Both the position numbers and the translations under genes were made by a program. 64,000 nt of DNA, taken from Clostridia bacterium. GTDB lineage: Bacteria; Bacillota; Clostridia; Monoglobales; Monoglobaceae. The notes beneath the pieces were generated by a model, which was not told the DNA's origin, made no database searches, and saw only the letters and a program-made list of their open reading frames with translations. The stretch spans positions 62,001 to 126,000 of the forward strand of contig JAFQSM010000080.1 of assembly GCA_017409575.1 (NCBI GenBank), read 5' to 3'. Positions 7,915 to 20,480 of this stretch are shown in pieces. How positions within the stretch are numbered: the first letter of the stretch is position 1; every line of letters begins with the position of its first letter.

Positions 7915-8012
7915 ATTTCCCATTCCCTTCGGTTTTACAATTATTTTAATACCATAATGCCCCCATTTTTCCAGTTTTTGGGCATTTGGGTACATTTACA
8001 CATTATGTCTTA

Positions 8013-8041
8013 AGTATAAAGGAAATTCGCCTTTATGTCAA
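8013..8041 (-). promoter_or_regulatory. Sigma-A promoter of the proS-cdaA-ispH operon
   Basis: On the minus strand TTGACA (8036-8041) and TATACT (8013-8018) are separated by 17 bases, nearly a perfect sigma-A promoter. The predicted start near 8006 gives a leader of about 90 bases to the proS TTG. The leader contains a possible hairpin with 7-bp arms AATGCCC/GGGCATT; it has no T-box AGGGTGG signature. Confidence 0.85.
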
Positions 8042-8087
8042 GGGTTTGGGGCAGATTTTTAATTGGAATTTTATACTCTTTCAAAGC

Positions 8088-8122
8088 AAAACGGCAAGAG
8101 CTTTAATCTCCCTTGCCGTTTT
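8088..8122 (-). terminator. Terminator after copA
   Basis: An 11-bp inverted repeat, AAAACGGCAAG and CTTGCCGTTTT, with a 13-base loop lies 6 bases after the copA stop. The A/T arms supply a short U-run on either strand, so it may work in both directions. Confidence 0.8.
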
Positions 8123-8128
8123 AATATC

Positions 8129-8338
8129 TTACTGTATCTCAAGCACCTTATAACCTTTGTCCTCAATCGCTTTTTTTAGCAAATCATCACTAAGTTCGTT
8201 CCGGCTTTCAACAACCGCTGTGCCAGTTTTGTGACTTACTTCTGCCATAGTTACGCCCTGAATTGTTTCAAGTGTGTTTTTTACATTTGCTTCGCAATGC
8301 GGACACATCATACCCTCAATTTTTATTGTTTTTTTCAT
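8129..8338 (-). other. Possible internally initiated CopZ-like copper chaperone
   Basis: This is the in-frame C-terminal domain of copA. An ATG at 8336-8338 starts a 69-residue product that matches a stand-alone CopZ in length and motif (MKKTIKIEGMMCPHC). AAGGAAG at 8350-8356 lies 11 bases upstream, slightly far but usable. The reading is an inference; the domain may be made only as part of CopA. Confidence 0.35.
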
Positions 8339-10582
8339 AGCTTTCTTTTCTTCCTTTTTATTTATTTTTACAAAATTCAACCTGAGTGCATTGGATACCA
8401 CCGAAAAGCTTGAAAGGCTCATTGCCGCAGCACCAAACATAGGGTTAAGTTCCCACCCGAAAATTGATATAAACGCTCCTGCAGCAAGCGGTATCCCTAT
8501 CGTATTATACAAAAACGCCCAAAACAGATTCTGGTGGATATTTCTAAGCACGCTGCGGCTCAGTCTTACAGCCGCAGAAGCATCCATCAGGCTGCTTTTC
8601 ACAAGCACCACATCTGCTGCGTCCACCGCAACATCCGCTCCCGTACCTATCGCAACTCCTGTGTCTGCAGTTGCAAGACTTGGAGCATCGTTTATTCCGT
8701 CACCAACCATCATCACTTTCCCAAAACTCATCAGTTCCCTGACTTTGTCCGCTTTGTCATCAGGCAAAACGCCTGCCACAACCTCTGTGATATGAACCTT
8801 TCCTGCAATCGCATCTGCCGTTTTTTTGTTGTCTCCCGTCAGCATTACAACCTTTATGCCAAGCTTTTTCAGTTGGTCGACCGCTTTGGGACTGTCCTCT
8901 TTTATTTCGTCTGCAACCGCGATTATTCCCAAAGGTTCTGTTTCCCGGGCAAAAAGCATCGGTGTTTTTCCCTGGTCAGCAAGCTTTTCCGCTATGGATA
9001 TTTCTTCCTTCGAAATCTCAATCGCACGACTCACAAAAGACAGACTCCCGGCAATATATTTCTTGCCGTTTATCTCTGCCGAAACACCGTTGCCTGCAAA
9101 AGCTTCAAACTGTCTGCTTTCAAAAAGTTCTGTATTTTTTGCCTTTTCCACAACAGCCTTTGCCAAAGGATGCTCGCTTTTTTGTTCCAACGATGCAGCA
9201 ATTTTCAAAAATTCATCTGCCGAACTGTCGTCAAAGACCACAACATCCGTCACCTCGGGCTTGCCCTTGGTGATTGTTCCTGTTTTGTCAAGTACGGCAA
9301 TTTTCGTTTTGCCAAGGTTTTCAAGAGCAGTTGCATTTTTAAAAAGTATTCCGTTCTTTGCTCCCACTCCGCTGCCTACCATAATGGCAACAGGCGTTGC
9401 AAGACCAAGTGCACAAGGGCAGCTGATTACCAAAACTGATATTCCGCGTGCAAGTGCAAAACCAACATCCTTGCCCAGAATCAGCCATATAAGAGCCGAA
9501 ACAAACGCAATCGCTATCACAATCGGGACAAACACACCCGAAACCTTGTCCGCCGCCTTTGCAATCGGGGCTTTTGTTGCCGTCGTATCAGAGACAAGCT
9601 TTATAATCTGCGACAAAGTGTTATCCTGAAAAGTTTTTGTCACTTCGCATTTTAAAAATCCAAACTTATTAATTGTTGCCGAGGTGACAAAATCACCGCA
9701 AGCTTTGTCAACAGGTATGCTTTCTCCTGTCAGAATTGACTCATCAACAGCACTTTCTCCCTCAATCACAGTGCCATCGGTTGCAATTCTTTCACCCGGA
9801 CGCACAACAAATATATCGCCGATTTTTAAAGTTTCTGCCGCTACAACAACCTCTTTGCCGTCTTTCAAAATCACAGCCGTCTTGGGTGCAAGCTCTATAA
9901 GGGATTTAATCGCCGCAGCCGTCTTACCCTTTGCGCGAGTTTCCAGCATTTTGCCGACCGTTATAAGAGTCAAAATCATAGCTGAGGACTCAAAATAAAG
10001 TCCATGAAGTATATGCGTTGCCGAACTTAAATCTCCGTCAATCAAAAAATTCGACATTGAAAACAACGAAATCGTACTGTATGCAAACGCCGCCCCCGAG
10101 CCGAGTGCCACCAAAGTATCCATATTGGGAGCACCTTTTAAAAGAGAACTTGTTCCGCTTATAAAAAACTTTCGGTTTATTATCAAAACCAAAACTGTCA
10201 GCAAGAACTGTAAAAGTCCCTGCATCATCGGATTTTGAGTCAAACCTGCGGGGAGCGGGAATCCCCACATATTATGTCCCATTGATATATAAACAAGAAT
10301 CAACAAAAATACAGATGAATATATAAGTCTGTTTTTAAGTGTTTTTAATTCGCCGTCACCATTGTTTTTTAGGTCTTCCTGCCTCTCTTTTGACTTTATT
10401 CCATAGCCGGCAGCCACAACCGCCGCTTTGATGGATTCGTCCGGGGCTGTTCCGTCAACACTCATAGAATTTGTAAGAAGATTTACGCTGCACGAAGAAA
10501 CTCCGTCAACTGCGCTCACAGCCTTTTCGACCCTTGCACTGCAAGCCGCACAGCTCATCCCTGTTATTTCAAAATTCTTCAT
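8129..10582 (-). CDS. copA: Copper-translocating P1B-type ATPase with N- and C-terminal HMA domains
   Basis: CopA exports Cu(I) across the membrane using ATP. The N-terminal heavy-metal domain has GMSCAAC (Cys11, Cys14). The transport core follows: CPC at 388-390 in the sixth core helix, DKTGT phosphorylation site at 432-436, SEHPLA in the nucleotide domain, GDGINDAP hinge, and YN plus MSLSS in the last two helices, the Cu(I) signature. Residues 749-817 form a second HMA domain (GMMCPHC, Cys760 and Cys763) resembling the chaperone CopZ, joined by a charged linker; this C-terminal fusion is less common. GGGGGTG precedes the ATG. It is a single-gene unit with its own promoter; I see no CopY box (TACAnnTGTA). 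Confidence 0.95.
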   Translation of the reverse strand: MKNFEITGMSCAACSARVEKAVSAVDGVSSCSVNLLTNSMSVDGTAPDESIKAAVVAAGYGIKSKERQEDLKNNGDGELKTLKNRLIYSSVFLLILVYISMGHNMWGFPLPAGLTQNPMMQGLLQFLLTVLVLIINRKFFISGTSSLLKGAPNMDTLVALGSGAAFAYSTISLFSMSNFLIDGDLSSATHILHGLYFESSAMILTLITVGKMLETRAKGKTAAAIKSLIELAPKTAVILKDGKEVVVAAETLKIGDIFVVRPGERIATDGTVIEGESAVDESILTGESIPVDKACGDFVTSATINKFGFLKCEVTKTFQDNTLSQIIKLVSDTTATKAPIAKAADKVSGVFVPIVIAIAFVSALIWLILGKDVGFALARGISVLVISCPCALGLATPVAIMVGSGVGAKNGILFKNATALENLGKTKIAVLDKTGTITKGKPEVTDVVVFDDSSADEFLKIAASLEQKSEHPLAKAVVEKAKNTELFESRQFEAFAGNGVSAEINGKKYIAGSLSFVSRAIEISKEEISIAEKLADQGKTPMLFARETEPLGIIAVADEIKEDSPKAVDQLKKLGIKVVMLTGDNKKTADAIAGKVHITEVVAGVLPDDKADKVRELMSFGKVMMVGDGINDAPSLATADTGVAIGTGADVAVDAADVVLVKSSLMDASAAVRLSRSVLRNIHQNLFWAFLYNTIGIPLAAGAFISIFGWELNPMFGAAAMSLSSFSVVSNALRLNFVKINKKEEKKAMKKTIKIEGMMCPHCEANVKNTLETIQGVTMAEVSHKTGTAVVESRNELSDDLLKKAIEDKGYKVLEIQ

Positions 10583-10607
10583 TGCGTATCACCCCCAACC
10601 TACATTT

Positions 10608-10636
10608 ATTATACCCATTATCTTTTAAAAAGTCAA
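10608..10636 (-). promoter_or_regulatory. Sigma-A promoter of copA
   Basis: TTGACT (10631-10636) and TATAAT (10608-10613) on the minus strand are 17 bases apart. The leader is only about 20 bases. The G-rich stretch before the ATG is mainly the ribosome binding site; a CsoR-type operator could overlap it but cannot be confirmed by eye. Confidence 0.85.
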
Positions 10637-10650
10637 TTTGTAAATGGATC

Positions 10651-10688
10651 AAAAAAACAAGGCAATCTGCGATTACAAATTGCCTTGT
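10651..10688 (-). terminator. Terminator after secF
   Basis: A 10-bp inverted repeat, ACAAGGCAAT and ATTGCCTTGT, with a 12-base loop is followed on the minus strand by seven U residues. It ends the secDF transcript. Confidence 0.9.
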
Positions 10689-10704
10689 CTGTTTTTAAAA
10701 CAAA

Positions 10705-11619
10705 TTACTTTCTGTTTGATTTAGCTTTTACAGCCGAATCCTTCCATGTTGCCCAAACCGAGCCTGCAATAAAGATTGACGAATAAGTACCAATGAAGAT
10801 ACCAATGATAATCGGAAGTGCAAATGCTTTGATTGAGCTTACACCCATAAGATAAACCATACCGATTGTAAGAAGTGTTGTAATTGTTGTGTTGATTGAA
10901 CGGCTCATTGTCTGGTTTATACTTGTATTTGCAATTTCTGAATATGTCAGTTTCTTTGCGTGACGGGTATTCTCGCGGATTCTGTCAAACACAACAATTG
11001 TCGCATTGATAGAATAACCAAGAACAGTAAGAACCGCCGCAATAAAGTTTGTATCAATCGCAATTCTTGTAATTGAATATATTCCACAAAGAATCAACAC
11101 ATCGTGCACAAGGGCAAGAACAGCACAAACGCCTGATACAAATTCAAATCTGAATGTTACATAGATAAGAATTGCAAGTGCCGCAAAAATTGACATCCAA
11201 ACTGCACTTCTTGCAAGTTCTTTGCCTGTTGACGGAGAAACAATGTCTCTGCTTTTAAGTTCAACACCCGAATAATTTTCACTGAGCTTTGCTGTGATTA
11301 CTTCAATTTTTTCTGCAGCAAAGCTTGCTCGTTCTTCGTCGTTTTTAAGATCGTTGTCATAGCCAAACTTGATAATAACTTCATTTCCTTCTGACTTTTG
11401 AACAGAAGATGCTTTCTTGTTTACACCAAGTGCATCAGAAACATACTTTTCAACATCTTTAACTTCAAAATCACTCTCTATTCCATAAGTTACAGCCATA
11501 CCGCCTGCAAAGTCGGTGTCAAGGTTGAATCCCTGAACGATAAGCGAAACTGCACTGGCAATCATCAAAACAAGAGAGATTGCAAAATAAATCTTTTTTC
11601 TTCCTAAAATGTTAATCAT
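10705..11619 (-). CDS. secF: Protein translocase subunit SecF
   Basis: SecF partners SecD to pull exported proteins across the membrane using the proton gradient. The 304-residue protein has an N-terminal helix (about 7-28), the family motif DFAGGMAVTYG just after it, a periplasmic-side domain, then five helices with the SecF signature STGKELARSA...VTFRFEF and GYSINATIVVFDRIRENTR. The ATG overlaps the secD stop by one base (TAATG), with GAGGAGGGGG upstream, so the pair is translationally coupled. Confidence 0.97.
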   Translation of the reverse strand: MINILGRKKIYFAISLVLMIASAVSLIVQGFNLDTDFAGGMAVTYGIESDFEVKDVEKYVSDALGVNKKASSVQKSEGNEVIIKFGYDNDLKNDEERASFAAEKIEVITAKLSENYSGVELKSRDIVSPSTGKELARSAVWMSIFAALAILIYVTFRFEFVSGVCAVLALVHDVLILCGIYSITRIAIDTNFIAAVLTVLGYSINATIVVFDRIRENTRHAKKLTYSEIANTSINQTMSRSINTTITTLLTIGMVYLMGVSSIKAFALPIIIGIFIGTYSSIFIAGSVWATWKDSAVKAKSNRK

Positions 11620-12908
11620 TAGTTTGCCCCCTCCTCTTTGTTTGATTTTTTGATGCCGTAAAGCCAGAGATTTTTAACATTCATTCCAATCATCTGCTTA
11701 AGCAGGAATCTGGTAATGAATATTGCAGAAATCATGCTGACAACAACACCAATAAGGAGAGTTGTACCAAAGCCCTTGATTGTACCGGTACCAAGCCACA
11801 TAAGTATTACTGCTGCAATAATTGTTGTGATATTGGAGTCAACAACTGCAGAAAGTGCTCTGTTAAAGCCCGCATCGACAGCACTGCGAACCGTCTTTCC
11901 AAGACGAAGTTCTTCTTTGATACGCTCAAATATAACAACATTTGCGTCAACCGCCATACCAATTGCGAGAATTATACCCGCAATACCCGGAAGTGTAAGG
12001 TTTACATGAAGGTTTGCAAGGATAATTCCCTGAGTAGCCATATATGCCAGAAGCGCAATGCTTGCCATTAATCCCGGCAAACGGTAGAACAAAAGCATAA
12101 ACAAGATAACAAGAATAATGCCTATAAGACCTGCAGTAAGAGATGTCTTGAGAGCTGTGTCGCCAAGGGTTGCACTTACGGCTCTGAGTTCAACCTGAGC
12201 AAGTGAGAAAGGAAGCTGACCCGAACGGATATTTCCTGCCAAAGCTTTTGCAGTCTCTGCATCAAATTCACCCGAAATGATACATTCTTCGCTGTCGATT
12301 CTCTCTTTTACGCGGGGAGCAGATACAACCAGATCATCCATCATAATAGCAATGTAGTTGTTTCCGTTTCCATGTACTACAACGCGTTCTGTTGCATCAG
12401 CAAACTTCTTTGCGCCCTCTGGTGTAAGAGTAAGCGAAACAAAATGCTGGCTTGTGCCCATCTGGTCAACGGGGCCGTACTGAGCTGCCGCAGTTTTTAC
12501 ATCGCTTCCGTTGAGGACTTCATTTCCCTGATAGTCAACAAACTTAAGCTGAGCTGTTGCGCCAAGGCTTTCAGCCGCTTTTTCAGGATCTGAAACCGAA
12601 GGAATTTCGATTCTTACTTTTTTTACGCCCTGTCTTGTAACGGTTGCTTCTGAATAGCCAAGTCCGTCAAGACGAGTCCTCATCATATTTGCTACTGTGT
12701 TCATCTGTTCGTCTGTCGGGTCATCAACCTGTGCTTCAAAAACGATTACCGAACCACCCTTAAGGTCAAGACCCTGCACAACTCCGTCGGGGTCCAAAAT
12801 GCCCGGAAATCTTACTGAATCGGTAAAATCCAGTCCGTACAGTGCAACAAACAGAAGTGCTGCGATTACAGCGATTATTGCTGTAAATTTGATAATACTT
12901 CTTGACAC
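11619..12908 (-). CDS. secD: Protein translocase subunit SecD
   Basis: The 429-residue SecD begins with one membrane segment (about 7-25), then LDLKGGSVIVFEA, the conserved start of the first periplasmic domain. The C-terminal transmembrane part contains GIAGIILAIGMAVDANVVIFERIKEE (residues given in part), with the conserved Asp and Arg of the proton path. The start is GTG at 12906-12908 with GAAGGAGG upstream. The P1 head domain is short compared with E. coli SecD (615 residues), as is normal in Firmicutes. It has its own promoter and a leader of about 85 bases. Confidence 0.97.
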   Translation of the reverse strand: MSRSIIKFTAIIAVIAALLFVALYGLDFTDSVRFPGILDPDGVVQGLDLKGGSVIVFEAQVDDPTDEQMNTVANMMRTRLDGLGYSEATVTRQGVKKVRIEIPSVSDPEKAAESLGATAQLKFVDYQGNEVLNGSDVKTAAAQYGPVDQMGTSQHFVSLTLTPEGAKKFADATERVVVHGNGNNYIAIMMDDLVVSAPRVKERIDSEECIISGEFDAETAKALAGNIRSGQLPFSLAQVELRAVSATLGDTALKTSLTAGLIGIILVILFMLLFYRLPGLMASIALLAYMATQGIILANLHVNLTLPGIAGIILAIGMAVDANVVIFERIKEELRLGKTVRSAVDAGFNRALSAVVDSNITTIIAAVILMWLGTGTIKGFGTTLLIGVVVSMISAIFITRFLLKQMIGMNVKNLWLYGIKKSNKEEGAN

Positions 12909-12931
12909 TGTTTTTTCCTCCTTCGTGTCCT

Positions 12932-12954
12932 GTCACAAAAAAATTTTTTATGAC
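12932..12954 (-). promoter_or_regulatory. Palindrome in the secD leader
   Basis: GTCACAAAAAAA and TTTTTTATGAC form a near-perfect A/T-rich palindrome about 25 bases upstream of the secD GTG, inside the transcribed leader. It could fold as a weak hairpin or bind a protein. Its function is unknown. Confidence 0.4.
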
Positions 12955-13002
12955 TTTTTATGTATGTGTTTTAATTATTTTCAGATTAATGCATACTGTT
13001 TT

Positions 13003-13031
13003 ATTATACTCATTTTCATCCCAATAGTCAA
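13003..13031 (-). promoter_or_regulatory. Sigma-A promoter of secDF
   Basis: TTGACT (13026-13031) and TATAAT (13003-13008) on the minus strand are separated by 17 bases. The promoter lies just after the TIGR04086 gene, so secDF can be transcribed independently of yajC. Confidence 0.85.
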
Positions 13032-13074
13032 TAGTTTGAACAAAACTTTTATATAGTTTTGATGCAATATTCTT

Positions 13075-13494
13075 TTATCGTCTGCGATTATGCGCTGTGT
13101 TTATCCCGGCAATTCCGCCCACTGCTCCGCAAAAAACTCCTATAAGCAGCGCAGTCAGAAAAGAAATCCCCAGATTAACCGTTCCCGAAACTATATTACC
13201 TGCAATGCACAAAATAACAGTATATAAAATTCCGCAACCTGCGCCAAAAAAAATACCCTTGCCCGAAAAATGCCGTCCTGCCGAAAATCCTGCAACAAGT
13301 GTTCCTATTGCTGTAACAACATTTGCAAGAATCGAAATGCCCATATTTGACATTGAACGATAGTTTGCAAAAAGTGCCGCTACAAAAAGAAGAACAAGTG
13401 ATATTATGTACGAAAAAAGCACTGTTTTAAGCATAAACAGTAGTCCCTGGACAATTCCTCCGTCATTTACCGGTTTTTGAACTGATTTTAGCAA
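13075..13494 (-). CDS. TIGR04086 family membrane protein
   Basis: A 139-residue integral membrane protein with four hydrophobic segments (about 21-44, 52-71, 81-103 and 108-130) and glycine-rich turns (GFSAGRHFSGKG, FFGAGCGILY, GVFCGAVGGIAGI). This matches the small Firmicutes family TIGR04086, often found next to yajC; no function is established. The start is TTG at 13492-13494. GAGGGGG is 7 bases upstream and is itself the 3' arm of a strong hairpin whose U-run touches the start codon, so expression may be limited by that structure. Confidence 0.8.
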   Translation of the reverse strand: MLKSVQKPVNDGGIVQGLLFMLKTVLFSYIISLVLLFVAALFANYRSMSNMGISILANVVTAIGTLVAGFSAGRHFSGKGIFFGAGCGILYTVILCIAGNIVSGTVNLGISFLTALLIGVFCGAVGGIAGINTAHNRRR

Positions 13495-13498
13495 AAAA

Positions 13499-13554
13499 AT
13501 ACCCCCTCTTTTATTTTACCTTTGCGATAAATATATGAAAAGAGAGGGGGGTAT
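13499..13554 (-). promoter_or_regulatory. Terminator-like hairpin that contains the TIGR04086 ribosome binding site
   Basis: On the minus strand an arm ATACCCCCCTCTCTTTT (13538-13554) pairs with AAAAGAGGGGGTAT (13499-13512) across a 25-base loop, and six to seven U residues follow. This resembles an intrinsic terminator for yajC. The GAGGGGG of the 3' arm is also the Shine-Dalgarno sequence of the next gene, and the U-run leads straight into its TTG start. Confidence 0.7.
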
Positions 13555-13567
13555 ATTACAAAGTATA

Positions 13568-13948
13568 TTATTCCTCGGTCGCGTTTTCAGCAATTTCGGG
13601 CGCAACTTTTTCTTCTTCGCCGCGTTTTATAAATCTGCTGATTGCACTGCGGTCAACAGTGATATAAGATTTATTCTGACCTATTCCGGATTCCAGAACA
13701 AACAAGTCATCCTTGATTCTTGTGATTTTTCCGTGAATTCCGCCGATTGTTGCAACCTCGTCATTTACCTTGAGTGATGCAAGCATATTTTTAAGTTCTT
13801 TTTCCCTTTTCTTCTGGGGTCTCAAAAGAATAAAGTAAAACACCAGAACCATAAGAATAAGCGGAAGGAACGAACCAATCAATCCGGCAGGTCCTGCAGC
13901 CTGTCCTGCTGCAGCAGTTGCATAAGCAGTTGTAGTTAATGAAAACAT
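13568..13948 (-). CDS. yajC: Preprotein translocase subunit YajC
   Basis: YajC is a small accessory membrane protein of the SecDF-YajC complex. From the ATG at 13946-13948 (GGAGG 11 bases upstream) it has 126 residues. One membrane helix lies at about 20-42 after an alanine-rich N-terminus, then the family sequence LRPQKKREKELKNML and a basic beta-rich region VNDEVATIGGIHGKITRIKDD. The tail is acidic. It has its own promoter and lies between tgt and the TIGR04086 gene. Confidence 0.95.
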   Translation of the reverse strand: MFSLTTTAYATAAAGQAAGPAGLIGSFLPLILMVLVFYFILLRPQKKREKELKNMLASLKVNDEVATIGGIHGKITRIKDDLFVLESGIGQNKSYITVDRSAISRFIKRGEEEKVAPEIAENATEE

Positions 13949-13989
13949 TTTGTTTTGCCTCCTTAAAGTCAAAATTATAATTTATAATG

Positions 13990-14018
13990 AGTATACCCTT
14001 TTTTTCCTTATTTTGCAA
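13990..14018 (-). promoter_or_regulatory. Sigma-A promoter of yajC
   Basis: TTGCAA (14013-14018) and TATACT (13990-13995) on the minus strand are separated by 17 bases, in the 97-base gap between tgt and yajC. No terminator is visible after tgt, so read-through is also likely. Confidence 0.8.
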
Positions 14019-14045
14019 GTATTATTTAAAAATTTTACAGTTTGT

Positions 14046-15200
<1,155 letters not shown>

Positions 15201-16226
15201 CTATTCTATAAACATCGCGTCGCCAAAGCTGAAAAATCTGTATTTTTCGTCTATTGCCTCTTTATAAGCTTTCATTATGGACTCTCTGTCATAAAGTGCC
15301 GAAATCAGCATAAGAAGTGTGGACTCGGGCAAATGAAAATTTGTAATGAGTGCATCAACTGTCTTGAACTTGTAGCCCGGGTATATAAAAATTGAAGTAT
15401 CTCCCGATCCTGAAACCACAGTTCCGTCATCAAATGAACTGCTTTCAAGAGTTCTTACGGATGTTGTGCCTACACATATTACTCTGCCACCGTTCTTTCG
15501 GGTCTCGTTTATCAAATCGGCAGTTTCTTTTGAAACCTGATAAAACTCGGTGTGCATTTTATGCTCCTCGATTTTCTCCGCCGACACAGGTCTGAATGTC
15601 CCAAGCCCGACATGCAGCGTCACAAACGCCGTTTTGATGCCTTTTTGACGAATTTTGTCAAGAAGTTCGTCAGTAAAGTGAAGTCCCGCGGTCGGTGCTG
15701 CAGCAGAGCCCTCGATTTTTGAATAAACTGTCTGGTATCTGTTTTTGTCCTCAAGTTTCTCTTTTATATACGGCGGGAGTGGCATCTCGCCCAAAGAATC
15801 CAGAATTTCTTCCCATATCCCATCGTACTCAAACCGGGCAACACGATTCCCATCGTCTTTCACCTCAATAATTTCAGTCTTAAGTCTGCCGTCACCAAAG
15901 ACAAAACGGCTTCCAACCTTTGCTTTTTTCCCTGGTCTTAAAATAAGCTCCCAGGTGTCAATATCAAGCCGTTTAAGAAGCAAAAATTCAATTCTTCCGC
16001 CGCTGCCTTCCTTTGAACCATACAGGCGTGCAGGAATAACACGGGTGTTGTTCATAACAAGACAGTCGCCCGGGTTTAAATAATCAACAATATCAAAAAA
16101 ATGCCTGTGCGAAATCCCACCCGATTCTCTGTTTAAGACCATCAGTCTTGACATGGTGCGGTCTTTGAGAGGAGTCTGTGCGATAAGTTCGGTCGGTAAA
16201 TCATAGTAAAAATCTTTTATATCCAA
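15201..16226 (-). CDS. queA: S-adenosylmethionine:tRNA ribosyltransferase-isomerase QueA
   Basis: QueA transfers and rearranges the ribosyl group of SAM onto preQ1-tRNA, giving epoxyqueuosine. It has 341 residues with conserved [13 protein letters not shown] at the N-terminus, [12 protein letters not shown], and [13 protein letters not shown] in the middle. The start is TTG at 16224-16226 with AAAGGT about 10 bases upstream; no ATG gives the conserved N-terminus. It lies 23 bases after the SpoIID-like gene and 24 before tgt. No queG is in the window. Confidence 0.97.
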
Positions 16227-16249
16227 TGTCCTTGCTACCTTTCAGATTA

Positions 16250-17857
16250 TTAATACGCTTTTTCAAGATGTGTGCCTGTATAATAATGCGTCAGTATTTC
16301 GTCATAACCAAAGCCTGCAGCTGCCATACCTTTTGCTCCATACTGACTCATTCCTACGCCATGGCCCCATCCCTCGCCGGTAAACACAAATGTATCAGGG
16401 TCGCCGTCGGTTGTTTCTGCTTTGTACTGTTTTTTTGACTTGCCGTTAAAAGCCGTGCAGTCATTCGCCACAGTTGATATATTGCCGTTCCCGCCAAGCA
16501 CCGAAATCTTATTTGTACCGACAACACTGATGTTGTCGCCGTTTGTTACTGTTACCGAAGGATATGTCTTTGTCCCTCCGTTTGAAACGGTATATCTTTG
16601 ACTGTAGGTCGCCTCGCTGAATATTGTGCGGCAACGTTCGCGCTCGAACACCTTGCTACCCTTTGTTCCGGTGACCTGAAGTTTAAGTACGCTGTCTGCT
16701 TCTGTCCGTTCAATTACAGAAATATCGGTTACATCACCTATGTCAAAACCGCCCGCTTTCATAATTTCTGTCGCACGCACTTTTGTCAGTGATTTTGACC
16801 ACTTTCCGTTGTAAATATTCTCGGTATCCTCATACGGATTTTCAACACTTACAAGATAAGGGAAATTCGAGCCCCAGACATTTTTTACATTTTCGGTCCG
16901 TTTTCCCATAGAAGACGAGTAAACCGTCTGTACTACTTCATCATTATAAAACAACAGTTCACCCCGTGTTTCGTCAACCGCCGTGTGCACACTTTCGGAA
17001 TTGTCCGCACTTGTCGAATATGCCTGACAGCAAACTGTGCGGCACACATCAAAGCCAAACTTGCTGTGATAATTAATTCTTCTCAATGCAAAGTTTCTTG
17101 CGCAGACCGCCTGGGCTTTTAAAGCCTCAACCTCCCACGACGGTGACATTTCTCGGCAGACAACACTGTAAAGATATTCCTCCACCGGCACAACATTTAC
17201 AACCGTCAGCTTGCCGTCACTCAGGATTTTGCTTTCAAATCCGCCGCGATAACTGCCCTTTGCGCTGCCCGAAATATTGAGGAGTGCATTTTTGTCTTCA
17301 AAATTTTTGCTGTAAACCGCAAGCCCACATTCGCCATCGTCAACCACCAGCAGCGTTTTGCCCGACGAATTTTTAAGGCAGGTTCCCTTTGCCGATACAC
17401 TTATTACACGTCCTTTGACAGCCGCATTTTCAGCCTCCCAAAGTGCATCGTTGTTATTTTCAAATGTACCGCTTAAAATATGGAATTCTGAATCTATGTA
17501 TCCTGCAAAAACGTCTATCCCCAAATTCCTTATTTTCAAAAGCTCGCTTTCCACCATTTCAGCATCGTCGCACACCGAATACGAAACATAAAACTTTTTG
17601 GAACCCCCTGCAGAAGCTTTTTCTACCGTTACTGAACTTCCCGAAACCGAAATCATCGGCACAAATTCCCTCTTTGCAACTACTCCTGCCGCAAAGCCCG
17701 TATCTGAATTAAAAGTCAGGCTGTCAACAGTTGCCGAGTCATAATATATCCCTACCCTCAAAGTATCGGCATATTCTGCCGCAAAAGTGCTTCCTGCTGA
17801 CAAAGCAACTGTCGCTGTCAGTGCAAACAACATAAACCACCTGAAAAACTTTTTCAT
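16250..17857 (-). CDS. spoIID: SpoIID/LytB domain protein (probable peptidoglycan lytic transglycosylase)
   Basis: SpoIID cleaves glycan strands during engulfment of the forespore. This 535-residue protein has a signal peptide or anchor (about 5-26), then about 190 residues of low similarity, then the SpoIID domain. The catalytic Glu is in VVCREMSPSWEVEALKAQAV, followed by VQTVYSSSMGKRTENVKNVW and the C-terminal GEGWGHGVGMSQYGAKGMA. It is much longer than B. subtilis SpoIID (343 residues); the extra N-terminal part probably binds cell wall, as in some LytB proteins. Whether it is the sporulation enzyme or a vegetative paralogue is not certain. A TGTCGAA motif lies upstream. Confidence 0.85.
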   Translation of the reverse strand: MKKFFRWFMLFALTATVALSAGSTFAAEYADTLRVGIYYDSATVDSLTFNSDTGFAAGVVAKREFVPMISVSGSSVTVEKASAGGSKKFYVSYSVCDDAEMVESELLKIRNLGIDVFAGYIDSEFHILSGTFENNNDALWEAENAAVKGRVISVSAKGTCLKNSSGKTLLVVDDGECGLAVYSKNFEDKNALLNISGSAKGSYRGGFESKILSDGKLTVVNVVPVEEYLYSVVCREMSPSWEVEALKAQAVCARNFALRRINYHSKFGFDVCRTVCCQAYSTSADNSESVHTAVDETRGELLFYNDEVVQTVYSSSMGKRTENVKNVWGSNFPYLVSVENPYEDTENIYNGKWSKSLTKVRATEIMKAGGFDIGDVTDISVIERTEADSVLKLQVTGTKGSKVFERERCRTIFSEATYSQRYTVSNGGTKTYPSVTVTNGDNISVVGTNKISVLGGNGNISTVANDCTAFNGKSKKQYKAETTDGDPDTFVFTGEGWGHGVGMSQYGAKGMAAAGFGYDEILTHYYTGTHLEKAY

Positions 17858-17968
17858 ATAAAAACCCTACCTTTCGGCAATAGCATAATACTCCTATTTC
17901 TTATTTTTCGACAAAAACCGCACAAATTCCTTTTGAATAAATATTAAATTTATGTTACAAAAAAATAA

Positions 17969-17997
17969 TTGACAATCCCCTGCCAATGTCATATAAT
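17969..17997 (+). promoter_or_regulatory. Sigma-A promoter of asd-dapB
   Basis: Consensus TTGACA (17969-17974) and TATAAT (17992-17997) are separated by 17 bases. The ribosome binding site GGGAGGA is at 18017-18023. The leader is about 28 bases, too short for a lysine riboswitch. Confidence 0.92.
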
Positions 17998-18031
17998 ATT
18001 TAGATAATGAATTAATGGGAGGACTATTGAC

Positions 18032-19111
18032 ATGAAAAAATTTAATGTAGGTATCATAGGTGCTACAGGAATGGTAGGTCAGAGATTCATTTCACTTTTG
18101 GCTGACCATCCTTGGTTTAATATTGTACTTCTTGCGGCATCGCCCAGAAGTGCAGGCAAAAAATATATCGAAGCCGTAGGTGACCGTTGGGCAATGAGCT
18201 CGGAAATCCCTGCAAAGATTTGCGATATGGTAATGTACGACGCAACTGCAGACATCGAAAAAATCGCGGCTCAGGTTGACTTTGTTTTCTGCGCTGTTGA
18301 TATGAAGAAAGACGAAATCCGTGCACTTGAAGAGGCATACGCAAAAGCAGAATGTCCGGTAATTTCAAACAACTCAGCTCACAGACACACAGCTGATGTT
18401 CCCATGATTATTCCGGAAATAAACCCCGACCACGCCGAAATCATCGAGGCACAGAAAAAACGCCTTGGCACAAAACGCGGTTTTGTTGCTGTAAAATCAA
18501 ACTGCTCACTTCAAAGCTACGTTCCGGCACTTCATCCACTTATGGGATTTGGCATAAAGAATGTTCTCGCTTGTACATATCAGGCAATTTCGGGTGCAGG
18601 AAAAACATTTGAGACATGGCCCGAAATGGTGGACAATGTTATTCCCTTTATCGGCGGTGAAGAAGAAAAAAGCGAAGTTGAACCTCTTAAAATCTGGGGC
18701 AAAATCGAGGACGGCAAGATTGTTGATGCTACATCTCCCTCAATCACCACTCAGTGTCTTCGTGTTCCGGTTTCGGATGGTCACACTGCTGCAGTATTTG
18801 TAAGCTTTGACAAAAAGCCTTCTATTGATGAAATCAAAGCTGCATGGAAAAATTTTGCAGGTGCTCCGCAGGAGCTTTCGCTTCCCTCGGCACCCAAACA
18901 GTTCCTCAATTATTTTGAAGAAGACAATCGTCCGCAGGCAAAGCTTGACCGCAACCTTGAAGGCGGTATGGCAGTTTCAATCGGTCGTCTTCGTGAAGAC
19001 AGCCAGTATGACTACAAATTTGTATGTCTTTCGCACAACACTCTTCGTGGTGCAGCAGGCGGCGCCGTTTTGATGGCAGAGCTTTTGGCAGCAAAAGGCT
19101 ATCTTGACTAA
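18032..19111 (+). CDS. asd: Aspartate-semialdehyde dehydrogenase (archaeal/fungal-type)
   Basis: Asd reduces aspartyl phosphate to aspartate semialdehyde with NADPH, the branch point to lysine/DAP, threonine and methionine. The 359 residues contain the nucleotide motif GATGMVGQRF (10-19) and catalytic Cys158 in VKSNCSLQ, plus YQAISGAGKTF and the GHTAAVF substrate region. Length and sequence fit the archaeal/fungal-like class that many Clostridia have, rather than the E. coli class. It heads the asd-dapB-ECF block. Confidence 0.96.
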   Translation: MKKFNVGIIGATGMVGQRFISLLADHPWFNIVLLAASPRSAGKKYIEAVGDRWAMSSEIPAKICDMVMYDATADIEKIAAQVDFVFCAVDMKKDEIRALEEAYAKAECPVISNNSAHRHTADVPMIIPEINPDHAEIIEAQKKRLGTKRGFVAVKSNCSLQSYVPALHPLMGFGIKNVLACTYQAISGAGKTFETWPEMVDNVIPFIGGEEEKSEVEPLKIWGKIEDGKIVDATSPSITTQCLRVPVSDGHTAAVFVSFDKKPSIDEIKAAWKNFAGAPQELSLPSAPKQFLNYFEEDNRPQAKLDRNLEGGMAVSIGRLREDSQYDYKFVCLSHNTLRGAAGGAVLMAELLAAKGYLD

Positions 19112-19124
19112 TTTAATCAACTAC

Positions 19125-19156
19125 TAATACGGCAGGGCATATGCCTTGCCGTATTA
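19125..19156 (+). promoter_or_regulatory. 16-bp intercistronic palindrome between asd and dapB
   Basis: TAATACGGCAGGGCAT is followed directly by ATGCCTTGCCGTATTA, complementary over 16 bp apart from one G-U pair. There is no U-run after it, so it is probably an RNA-stabilising or attenuating hairpin rather than a full terminator. Confidence 0.6.
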
Positions 19157-19179
19157 AATAACTTAAGGAGTACTTACAA

Positions 19180-19935
19180 ATGATTAACATTCTTTTATGC
19201 GGTTCGAACGGCAAAATGGGTAATGCCGTAAGACGAGTTGCCCAAAACGATGATTTTATCAACATCGCAGCCGGTTATGACATAAACAATTCGGGTTGTG
19301 AATTCCCTGTTTATGACAATCTGAGCAAGATTACCGAAAAAATTGATTGTATAATTGATTTTTCACATCCTTCACTTACAGACAGTATTCTGGACTTTGC
19401 AAAAGCAAACAAAATCCCGGCAGTTATTTGCACCACAGGTCTTTCAAAGGACCAGATTTCAAAAATAGACTTTTATTCAAAGGAAATCCCGATTTTCTTT
19501 TCGGCAAACATGTCAATAGGCGTAAACCTTATTATTGACCTTGTTCAAAAAGCAGCAAAGGTGCTTGAAAGCAATTTTGATATTGAAATTATTGAAAAGC
19601 ATCACAATCAAAAACTTGACGCACCCAGCGGCACAGCACTCGCCATTGCAGATGCAATTGCTGATACCGTAAGTTACAATGCCAAATATACCTTTGACCG
19701 TCACGCCGTAAGACAAAAGCGCGATAAGGCTGAAATCGGCATACATGCAGTACGCGGCGGAAACATTGTCGGTGAGCACAGTGTTATTTTTGCCGGCTGC
19801 GATGAGGTTATTGAGCTTAAGCACTCTGCCACATCAAAAGAAGTTTTTGCAGTTGGTGCCGTTCGTGCAGCAATCTTTATGAAGGACAAGCCTGCAGGAC
19901 TTTACAGTATGTCAGATCTGGTAAAAGAATTCTAA
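19180..19935 (+). CDS. dapB: 4-hydroxy-tetrahydrodipicolinate reductase
   Basis: DapB reduces the cyclic product of DapA to tetrahydrodipicolinate in the DAP/lysine pathway with NAD(P)H. The 251 residues show the dinucleotide motif GSNGKMGN near the start, CTTGLSKDQ, and the family active-site stretch EKHHNQKLDAPSGTA with catalytic His and Lys. AAGGAG precedes the ATG. Tetrahydrodipicolinate is the direct substrate of the ddh gene product encoded 2.4 kb downstream on the other strand. Confidence 0.97.
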   Translation: MINILLCGSNGKMGNAVRRVAQNDDFINIAAGYDINNSGCEFPVYDNLSKITEKIDCIIDFSHPSLTDSILDFAKANKIPAVICTTGLSKDQISKIDFYSKEIPIFFSANMSIGVNLIIDLVQKAAKVLESNFDIEIIEKHHNQKLDAPSGTALAIADAIADTVSYNAKYTFDRHAVRQKRDKAEIGIHAVRGGNIVGEHSVIFAGCDEVIELKHSATSKEVFAVGAVRAAIFMKDKPAGLYSMSDLVKEF

Positions 19936-19955
19936 CTTCAGGGAGGGCATATATA

Positions 19956-20480
19956 ATGAAAGCTAACAAGTTGTCATTATCTGCACTTTTTTGTGCATTG
20001 ACTTTAATCTCCACCATGGTACTACGAATTCCGTCAGGCCTTACCGGCGGTTATATAAACCTTGGAGACATTTTCGTCTTGCTGTCATCATACTTTCTGG
20101 GTCCCCTAAACGGAGCCGTTGTCGCCGCATTGGGCTCGTGTTTTGCAGATATTTTTACCAAACATACAATTTTTGCATTACCAACACTTATAATCAAATT
20201 TTTTACCGCTCTTACAGCAGGCTTGATTTTTAAAAAGTGGCATCGAAAGAAATTTGCCCGGCTTGTCATCTGTGCAACTTTGGGTGAATGTGTTATGGTT
20301 TTCGGGTACTTCCTTGTGGATCTCATGCTCTCGCGAAGTCTCACAACTGCTCTTATCGGAACATACGGAAGCTTTATACAAGCAATATTTGCTATAATAG
20401 TCTCAGCAATTTTTTATAAGGCTCTTATGGAAGACAAAAAAGTTCTGAGGTATTTAAAAAACTCACGAAAAAAACGCTAA
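19956..20480 (+). CDS. ECF transporter S component (substrate unknown)
   Basis: A 174-residue membrane protein with about five or six helices and the S-component hallmark near the N-terminus (LSLSALFCALT, then GGYINLGDIFVLLSSYFLGPLNG). S components bind a vitamin or small metabolite and use a shared EcfA-EcfT energising module, which is not in this window. It begins 20 bases after dapB with GGGAGGG upstream and ends at a terminator, so it is the last gene of the asd-dapB operon. The linkage hints at a substrate tied to lysine or DAP, but this is only contextual. Confidence 0.85.
   Translation: MKANKLSLSALFCALTLISTMVLRIPSGLTGGYINLGDIFVLLSSYFLGPLNGAVVAALGSCFADIFTKHTIFALPTLIIKFFTALTAGLIFKKWHRKKFARLVICATLGECVMVFGYFLVDLMLSRSLTTALIGTYGSFIQAIFAIIVSAIFYKALMEDKKVLRYLKNSRKKR

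Follow-up and report, generated by a model that had tools for sequence, protein, structure and literature searches.

The short gap between yajC and a gene of the TIGR04086 (DUF3792) membrane protein family holds a predicted minus-strand promoter of the type used by sigma-E, the sporulation sigma factor of the mother cell, together with a hairpin that is laid over this promoter and masks the Shine-Dalgarno (SD) sequence of the TIGR04086 gene. The arrangement is probably best explained by a sporulation promoter that doubles as a read-through lock, in which the promoter spacer would act as an anti-SD in RNA arriving from upstream and would be missing from RNA that starts at the promoter itself. 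This lock is predicted in silico from the promoter motif, its sigma-E specificity, its box spacing, the placement of the arm, the matching of arm and SD, and the dependence of this matching on a co-directional neighbor; beyond these, we infer the read-through, the start site, the block of translation and the benefit of making no protein during growth. The locus lies in a stretch of 64,000 nucleotides, which as a whole is referred to as the window.

Gene order and hairpin in the window

The minus strand of the window carries the gene order queA–tgt–yajC, followed by the short gap, the TIGR04086 gene, secD and secF (Table 1), where the frame upstream of tgt is presumed to be queA from its reading frame. 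This order fits co-directional read-through, for which yajC would be the source; the yajC stop codon (13570-13568, minus strand) is located 13 nt before the 5' arm of the hairpin. The TIGR04086 product also matches Pfam family PF12670 (64.3 bits, cut-off 31.3). Its TTG start (13494-13492, minus strand) is supported by an N-terminal consensus, M-[S/L]-[K/R]-x-x-Q, that the window shares with six congeneric loci when the chosen starts are used. A downstream start with its own ribosome binding site, named in the sequence-only reading as one observation that would refute its interpretation, was not found; the in-frame ATG considered, at codon 21, has an SD match of only 3 bases and is not favored by SD energy. 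The nearest named relatives (6 loci) are MAGs from gut samples or are labelled Clostridia/Oscillospiraceae. Owing to the sigma-A-like promoter ahead of secD, secDF need not depend on transcription through the TIGR04086 gene, with the proviso that an 11/12 consensus match is by itself no evidence of function. A further terminator-like hairpin of 16 pairs is found at 10690-10655 (minus strand), after secF and before a gene at 10582-8129 that we take, from its reading frame, to be P-type ATPase-like.

Table 1. Features of the yajC–TIGR04086–secD region, in window coordinates
Feature	Position	Strand	Basis or remark
yajC, preprotein translocase subunit	13568..13951	-	NCBIfam TIGR00739, 79.4 bits; co-directional, upstream
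-35 box GTAATATAC of the predicted sigma-E promoter	13551..13559	-	motif from 160 loci
Promoter spacer CCCCCTCTCTTT, 12 nt, also core of the anti-SD 5' arm	13539..13550	-	
-10 box TCATATATTT, almost wholly in the hairpin loop	13529..13538	-	motif; conservation peak after spacer
Putative sigma-E transcription start zone	13520..13526	-	model places start just past the -10 block
SD-sequestering hairpin, able to form only in read-through RNA	13499..13554	-	fold of -18.0 kcal/mol; predicted
SD GAGGGGG of the TIGR04086 gene, within the 3' arm	13502..13508	-	duplex with 16S 3' end, -12.7 kcal/mol
TIGR04086/DUF3792 family membrane protein, TTG start	13075..13494	-	NCBIfam TIGR04086, 62.2 bits, cut-off 30
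Sigma-A-like promoter TTGACT-17-TATAAT ahead of secD	13003..13031	-	consensus scan, 11/12; predicted

The hairpin consists of a 5' arm AUACCCCCCUCUCUUUU (13554-13538), a 25-nt loop (13537-13513) and a 3' arm AAAAGAGGGGGUAU (13512-13499), all on the minus strand, and a run of seven Ts (13499-13493) begins at the last base of the stem and reaches the TTG start. Arms, loop, SD and T-run are thus present as the sequence-only reading had described them. In the minimum free energy (MFE) fold, 8 + 6 arm pairs are formed around a 3-nt bulge, with 2 + 6 further pairs above them. The 64-nt piece folds at -18.0 kcal/mol, a value reached by none of 200 shuffles (z -3.46), and a 96-nt piece with more flank shows a weak effect (z -1.54, 16 of 200 shuffles as good). 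Furthermore, shuffling the window's own spacer yields an arm–SD duplex of equal stability in 72 of 500 trials, which is not significant when taken alone. Because of these shuffled spacers and the weak effect in the longer piece, function is not proven by the window alone, and the case for a functional hairpin, made at the level of sequence, is carried by comparative evidence. The predicted pairing probability of the SD in the window is 0.96 in read-through RNA versus 0.18 if the RNA begins at the presumed internal start.

A promoter motif of the sigma-E type

A gapped motif, seeded with a sigma-E consensus, was fitted to 160 distinct TIGR04086 upstream regions of relatives, with the window's own region included and duplicates removed; these loci are the ones retrieved and represent a subset of the genomes with a match. 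The fitted motif consists of a -35 element G-T/G-A/C-A-T-A-A/T and a -10 element G-C/A-A-T-A-N-A-N-T that are 12 nt apart, a spacing found in 82% of the sites, with 11 nt in 12% and 13 nt in 4%. In 5-fold cross-validation, the 95% point of dinucleotide shuffles was exceeded by 149 of the 160 upstream regions and the 99% point by 127. All 29 hold-out loci, which come from the phylum's other classes and had no part in training, exceeded the 95% point, and 22 of them the 99% point. The whole promoter site in the yajC–TIGR04086 gap is the best motif match in the 64-kb window (20.8 bits). A strict promoter pattern was not enriched in the window's own genome, with 6 matches versus 8 in the reversed control. 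The optimal spacing of Bacillus subtilis promoters is given in PMC517825 as 12 ± 1 bp for sigma-E and 15 ± 1 for sigma-K, and the spacing found here agrees with the former; the sigma-E promoters of B. subtilis spoIIIA and spoIVA treated in the same source likewise have boxes 12 ± 1 bp apart, as at TIGR04086. A second -35 flavor, GTTCTA in place of GTMATA, occurs at nine loci (L063, L064, L065, L069, L077, L091, L115, L135 and L137); many of these are loci where the TIGR04086 gene is not behind yajC, and the flavor is also present at the window's spoIIIA promoter.

The question of which sigma factor the motif belongs to was approached with the motif trained on TIGR04086 alone, which was then applied, at a threshold of 9.58 bits (95% of shuffles), to further genes from the same class. 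The control sets comprised the best 30 matching loci per search, from which one spoVAC locus dropped out (29/30). Among these best 30 matching loci each, the threshold was reached at 27 for spoIIIAA and 26 for spoIVA, and such matches were rare at spoVAC (1/29), yajC (10/113), secD (0/16) and tgt (1/6). According to PMC517825, spoIIIA and spoIVA are sigma-E genes in B. subtilis, and PMC7438776 treats spoVAC as a forespore sigma-F/G gene in Clostridioides difficile. In addition, the second-best motif match in the 64-kb window (17.5 bits, 29156-29126, minus strand) lies behind hflX and before the spoIIIA operon, which extends from SpoIIIAA (29060-28131) to SpoIIIAG (25282-24713) with several members just below the NCBIfam cut-offs; the gene in the SpoIIIAH position (24706-24167) was matched by no model.

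The distribution of the family follows that of sigE. Across 243 genomes, TIGR04086 is present in 183 of the 188 genomes with sigE versus 2 of the 55 without it, with sigE scored as absent wherever the best E was weaker than 1e-50, a single threshold throughout, and with counts made by hand from the search listings. In one of the two exceptions (G146), the TIGR04086 match does not reach the family cut-off; the other (G068) has SpoIVA and SpoVAC, so that the assembly may lack its sigE. Conversely, five genomes with a clear sigE gave no TIGR04086 match (G115, G130, G210, G240 and G277), for which gene loss, a non-sporulating lifestyle or assembly gaps are possible reasons. In the window's own genome, matches to SigE, SpoIVA and SpoVAC exceed the family cut-offs, and the spoIIIA operon is present as well. 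Several genomes, including G284, G293, G308 and G309, contain two or three TIGR04086 matches, of which the extra ones score lower. Two loci (L083 and L084) have TIGR04086 matches with an internal stop (one TAG, one TAA), possibly due to decay or sequencing error.

Motif and co-occurrence suggest that the DUF3792/TIGR04086 membrane proteins, an uncharacterised family, belong to the sigma-E (mother cell) stage of sporulation. No literature on the site or the family was found in a search judged by title and covering largely open-access journals, and searches for yrzE and DUF3792 returned only papers that are unrelated by title. YajC is mentioned in spores in PMC8745062, the main text of which contains neither TIGR04086 nor DUF3792.

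Predicted pairing of the promoter spacer with the Shine-Dalgarno sequence

Superimposing hairpin and promoter in the window shows that the 5' arm runs from the end of the -35 box through the spacer to the first base of the -10 block. The other bases of the -10 block and those transcribed first make up the loop, and the SD lies in the 3' arm. The same layout is predicted in relatives. In the 90 yajC-linked loci in which the SD is paired with the arm at a probability (P) above 0.5, the spacer supplies 513 of the 552 MFE partners of SD bases; 27 belong to the -35 block and 12 to the -10 block, and there are none further downstream. As the SD has no partner downstream of the -10 block, RNA from the sigma-E promoter would be unable to form the hairpin. 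In these loci, the median predicted SD pairing is 0.91 in the read-through RNA versus 0.36 in the short RNA, and in 64 of the 90 the SD is freed by more than 0.3 in the short compared to the read-through RNA.

It had been suggested from the sequence alone that the loop could be bound, and the hairpin opened, by a ligand, an RNA or a ribosome. Such opening is not needed because transcripts starting inside the hairpin would bypass the stem. A regulatory RNA opened through its loop by a ligand, a protein or temperature, such as a riboswitch or thermometer, would account for the masked SD and for the conservation of the loop start within the genus. However, the conserved loop bases are those of the -10 box, and conservation beyond the box is at most 0.45 bits per position versus up to 1.7 within it. 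No Rfam family was found at gathering score in window positions 8000-20000, and in 18 loci the only such hit was one tRNA elsewhere; the best sub-threshold match at the site, L10_leader, reached 22.9 versus the required 44 bits. Furthermore, the arm–SD match falls to chance level where the neighbor is divergent, a dependence that no sensor would require. A sensor RNA is therefore extremely improbable, and the ligand or thermometer version was rejected on the Rfam result and the identity of the conserved loop bases with the -10 box.

Whether the match between arm and SD is selected was assessed with spacers that were shuffled or swapped between loci. The fraction of loci with P > 0.5 proved a weak measure (90 of 108 yajC-linked loci; controls 75-83 with shuffled and 81-90 with swapped spacers) and was superseded by duplex and fold energies. 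An arm–SD duplex of -12 kcal/mol or better is found in 90 of the 108 yajC-linked loci versus about 48 with swapped or shuffled spacers, leaving 18 loci without one, and a duplex of -14 kcal/mol or better in 77 of the 108 versus 31-34 in the controls. At P > 0.8, the corresponding numbers are 63 of 108 versus 31-38. The mean fold of the yajC-linked loci is -21.8 kcal/mol, compared to -16.7 (sd 0.3) with swapped and -16.4 (sd 0.2) with shuffled spacers. With 60 nonredundant spacers, own spacers give -15.5 versus -9.69 (sd 0.37) for exchanged ones, the most stable of 200 exchanges reaching -10.79. The SD masking claimed in the sequence-only reading is strongly supported by this comparison.

As a baseline restricted to genes whose SD is clear, predicted pairing of the SD with upstream sequence reaches P > 0.8 in 58 of 105 yajC-linked TIGR04086 genes, compared to 2/112 for yajC and 0/16 for secD, and to 1/30 for spoIIIAA, 2/30 for spoIVA and 0/22 for spoVAC among the sporulation controls. 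At P > 0.5, the respective numbers are 86/105, 17/112 and 1/16, and 14/30, 11/30 and 8/22. Another reading is that the sigma-E promoter is real and the hairpin a mere by-product of a pyrimidine-rich spacer beside a purine-rich SD, which would explain why shuffled spacers still pair frequently (75-83 of 108 at P > 0.5) and why the window alone gives 72 of 500. That reading is improbable, given that own arms surpass shuffled or swapped ones by about 5 kcal/mol on average, with means of -14.6 versus -9.0 in the hold-out, and given that spoIIIAA has no such match and spoIVA little.

Covariation, which had been proposed as a check, gave a split result. Within the genus, no two-sided changes were seen in 8 pairs over 6 rows, where the structure string was off register in one pair, the coordinates of L032 were faulty in one alignment, and the arms are C- and G-runs that make within-genus covariation uninformative; across the class, the arm-swap test was positive.

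Alternatively, the hairpin could serve the yajC operon as an intrinsic terminator and harbor the next gene's SD in its 3' arm by chance. The window does have the stable stem and U-run of such a terminator, with a stem of -18 kcal/mol in which a G-run is followed by TATTTTTTT, and secD has its own sigma-A-like promoter further on; a simple terminator scan omitted the yajC–TIGR04086 hairpin, as its loops were limited to 8. Among the yajC-linked loci, however, only 37 of 108 have a T-run, defined as 5 or more T within the 8 nt that follow the SD, whereas the arm–SD match is conserved, and a terminator would not account for an arm that consists of a sigma-E promoter's spacer. A terminator as the sole function is thus unlikely. 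The terminator role that had been ascribed to the hairpin alongside masking is possible in the window's lineage, which has the T-run, as part of a dual terminator and lock; it does not hold as a conserved property (37/108).

If the hairpin serves as a lock against read-through, its presence should follow the orientation of the upstream gene. Orientation was assigned with a crude ORF rule; L065 and L069 were moved manually on account of a small conserved co-directional ORF of 55 aa (...YRKMxQxGVFTEEQLDE) that lies upstream of TIGR04086 at both loci. At the 15 divergent loci with a promoter, a duplex of -12 kcal/mol or better is found in 2 (1.5-2 expected) and P > 0.8 in none, and the 24 loci with another co-directional neighbor show a modest excess, with 8 reaching this duplex energy versus 3-5 by chance. 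In the phylum hold-out, half of the yajC-linked loci (7/14) have a duplex of -14 kcal/mol or better where 1.5 would be expected, and the means are -14.6 versus -9.0; for the loci without yajC the count is 3/15, again with 1.5 expected, and the means are -9.4 versus -8.7. The weak P > 0.5 measure gives 11/14 with and 9/15 without yajC. Within the genus, the congener L030, which has a divergent neighbor, has kept the promoter (19.3 bits) and has no lock (-3.9 kcal/mol), and congeners with a co-directional neighbor (L031, L032, L033, L017 and L012) have duplexes of -17.5 to -20.5 kcal/mol.

In translational coupling, the hairpin would be opened by ribosomes that complete yajC or stall near its stop, as in ribosome-arrest systems of the SecM/MifM/VemP type. 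YajC is a Sec component, and in the window its stop codon is close to the arm (13 nt). Yet in 19 of the 90 loci counted as locked (P > 0.5), the distance from the yajC stop to the start of the promoter exceeds 40 nt and reaches up to 127 nt, and coupling leaves the promoter unexplained. It is very improbable here, and ribosome arrest or coupling was rejected as a general mechanism on these distances.

Proposed mechanism and known systems

According to the read-through lock, growth-phase RNA from the tgt–yajC operon would carry both arms, including the promoter spacer as anti-SD, and would fold into the hairpin, so that the SD is masked and the TIGR04086 gene stays untranslated; in the window's lineage, this RNA may in addition terminate at the U-run. 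In the mother cell, RNA polymerase with sigma-E would start at the promoter between yajC and the TIGR04086 gene, and the resulting RNA would begin inside the loop and lack the 5' arm, leaving the SD free for translation. The gene would in this way be shielded from leaky vegetative expression despite its seat in a housekeeping operon, and it is probably made only during spore formation. The earlier proposal that the gene is made only if the hairpin is opened holds for the masking of the SD and not for the opening, as the hairpin would be bypassed instead.

A demonstrated case of this kind is gene e of phage T4, for which PMC3014915 describes long early transcripts that fold an SD-masking helix and give about 100-fold less lysozyme. 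Transcripts of gene e and I-TevI from late promoters directly upstream lack the 5' strand and are translated, and the late promoter sits in the DNA encoding the 5' strand of the helix (PMC3014915). The likeness lies in the SD of TIGR04086, which is predicted to pair with an upstream arm in the long transcript, and in the promoter, which is placed so that its RNA is predicted to lack the 5' arm (552/552 partners). In contrast to T4, a phage that uses the sigma factor gp55, the TIGR04086 site involves a bacterial sporulation sigma factor and a chromosomal housekeeping operon, and most of its anti-SD arm is formed by the promoter spacer, an arrangement seen in several classes of a single phylum. 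A second, proposed case is B. subtilis sigG (spoIIIG), where PMC5942855 proposes that a large hairpin prevents translation of RNA reading through from spoIIGA-sigE; RNA that starts at the sigG promoter cannot form it, as is predicted for TIGR04086. The sigG hairpin has 20+ bp and is combined with a sigma-F/sigma-G promoter of the forespore, whereas the TIGR04086 site has a sigma-E-type promoter and an uncharacterised gene. In the window's genome, a sigE-sigG tandem was not seen, with no sigma-factor frame after sigE on the same strand of a 4-kb stretch. What is new here is the gene, the sigma factor, the promoter spacer as anti-SD and the spread.

The site offers a testable answer to how a spore former silences a developmental gene inside a housekeeping operon, and it suggests that the trick known from T4 lysozyme is used on a chromosome and has been kept across classes of one phylum. 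It also carries the warning that the abundance of read-through RNA of such genes need not reflect protein. More tentatively, the sigma-E spacer may be free sequence into which evolution repeatedly wrote an anti-SD, making the 31-bp promoter a translational insulator as well. This may also have happened at further sporulation genes located behind growth genes, which would make such promoter-embedded locks a general class in spore formers. The Clostridia homologues of spoIIIA and spoIVA have the TIGR04086-type motif, but as groups they have no lock (spoIIIAA, -6.71 versus -6.50 kcal/mol, sd 0.39) or at most a slight arm–SD match (spoIVA, -8.98 versus -7.95, sd 0.38). The design may recur elsewhere, as single loci among the 53 spoIIIAA and spoIVA sites do show a match between spacer and SD. 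The spoIIIAA duplex in L205/L206 reaches -18.1 kcal/mol (0.2% of pooled shuffles as stable) and the spacer–SD duplex of spoIVA in L256 -17.6 kcal/mol (2.6% of pooled shuffles as stable), and these are possibly independent locks.
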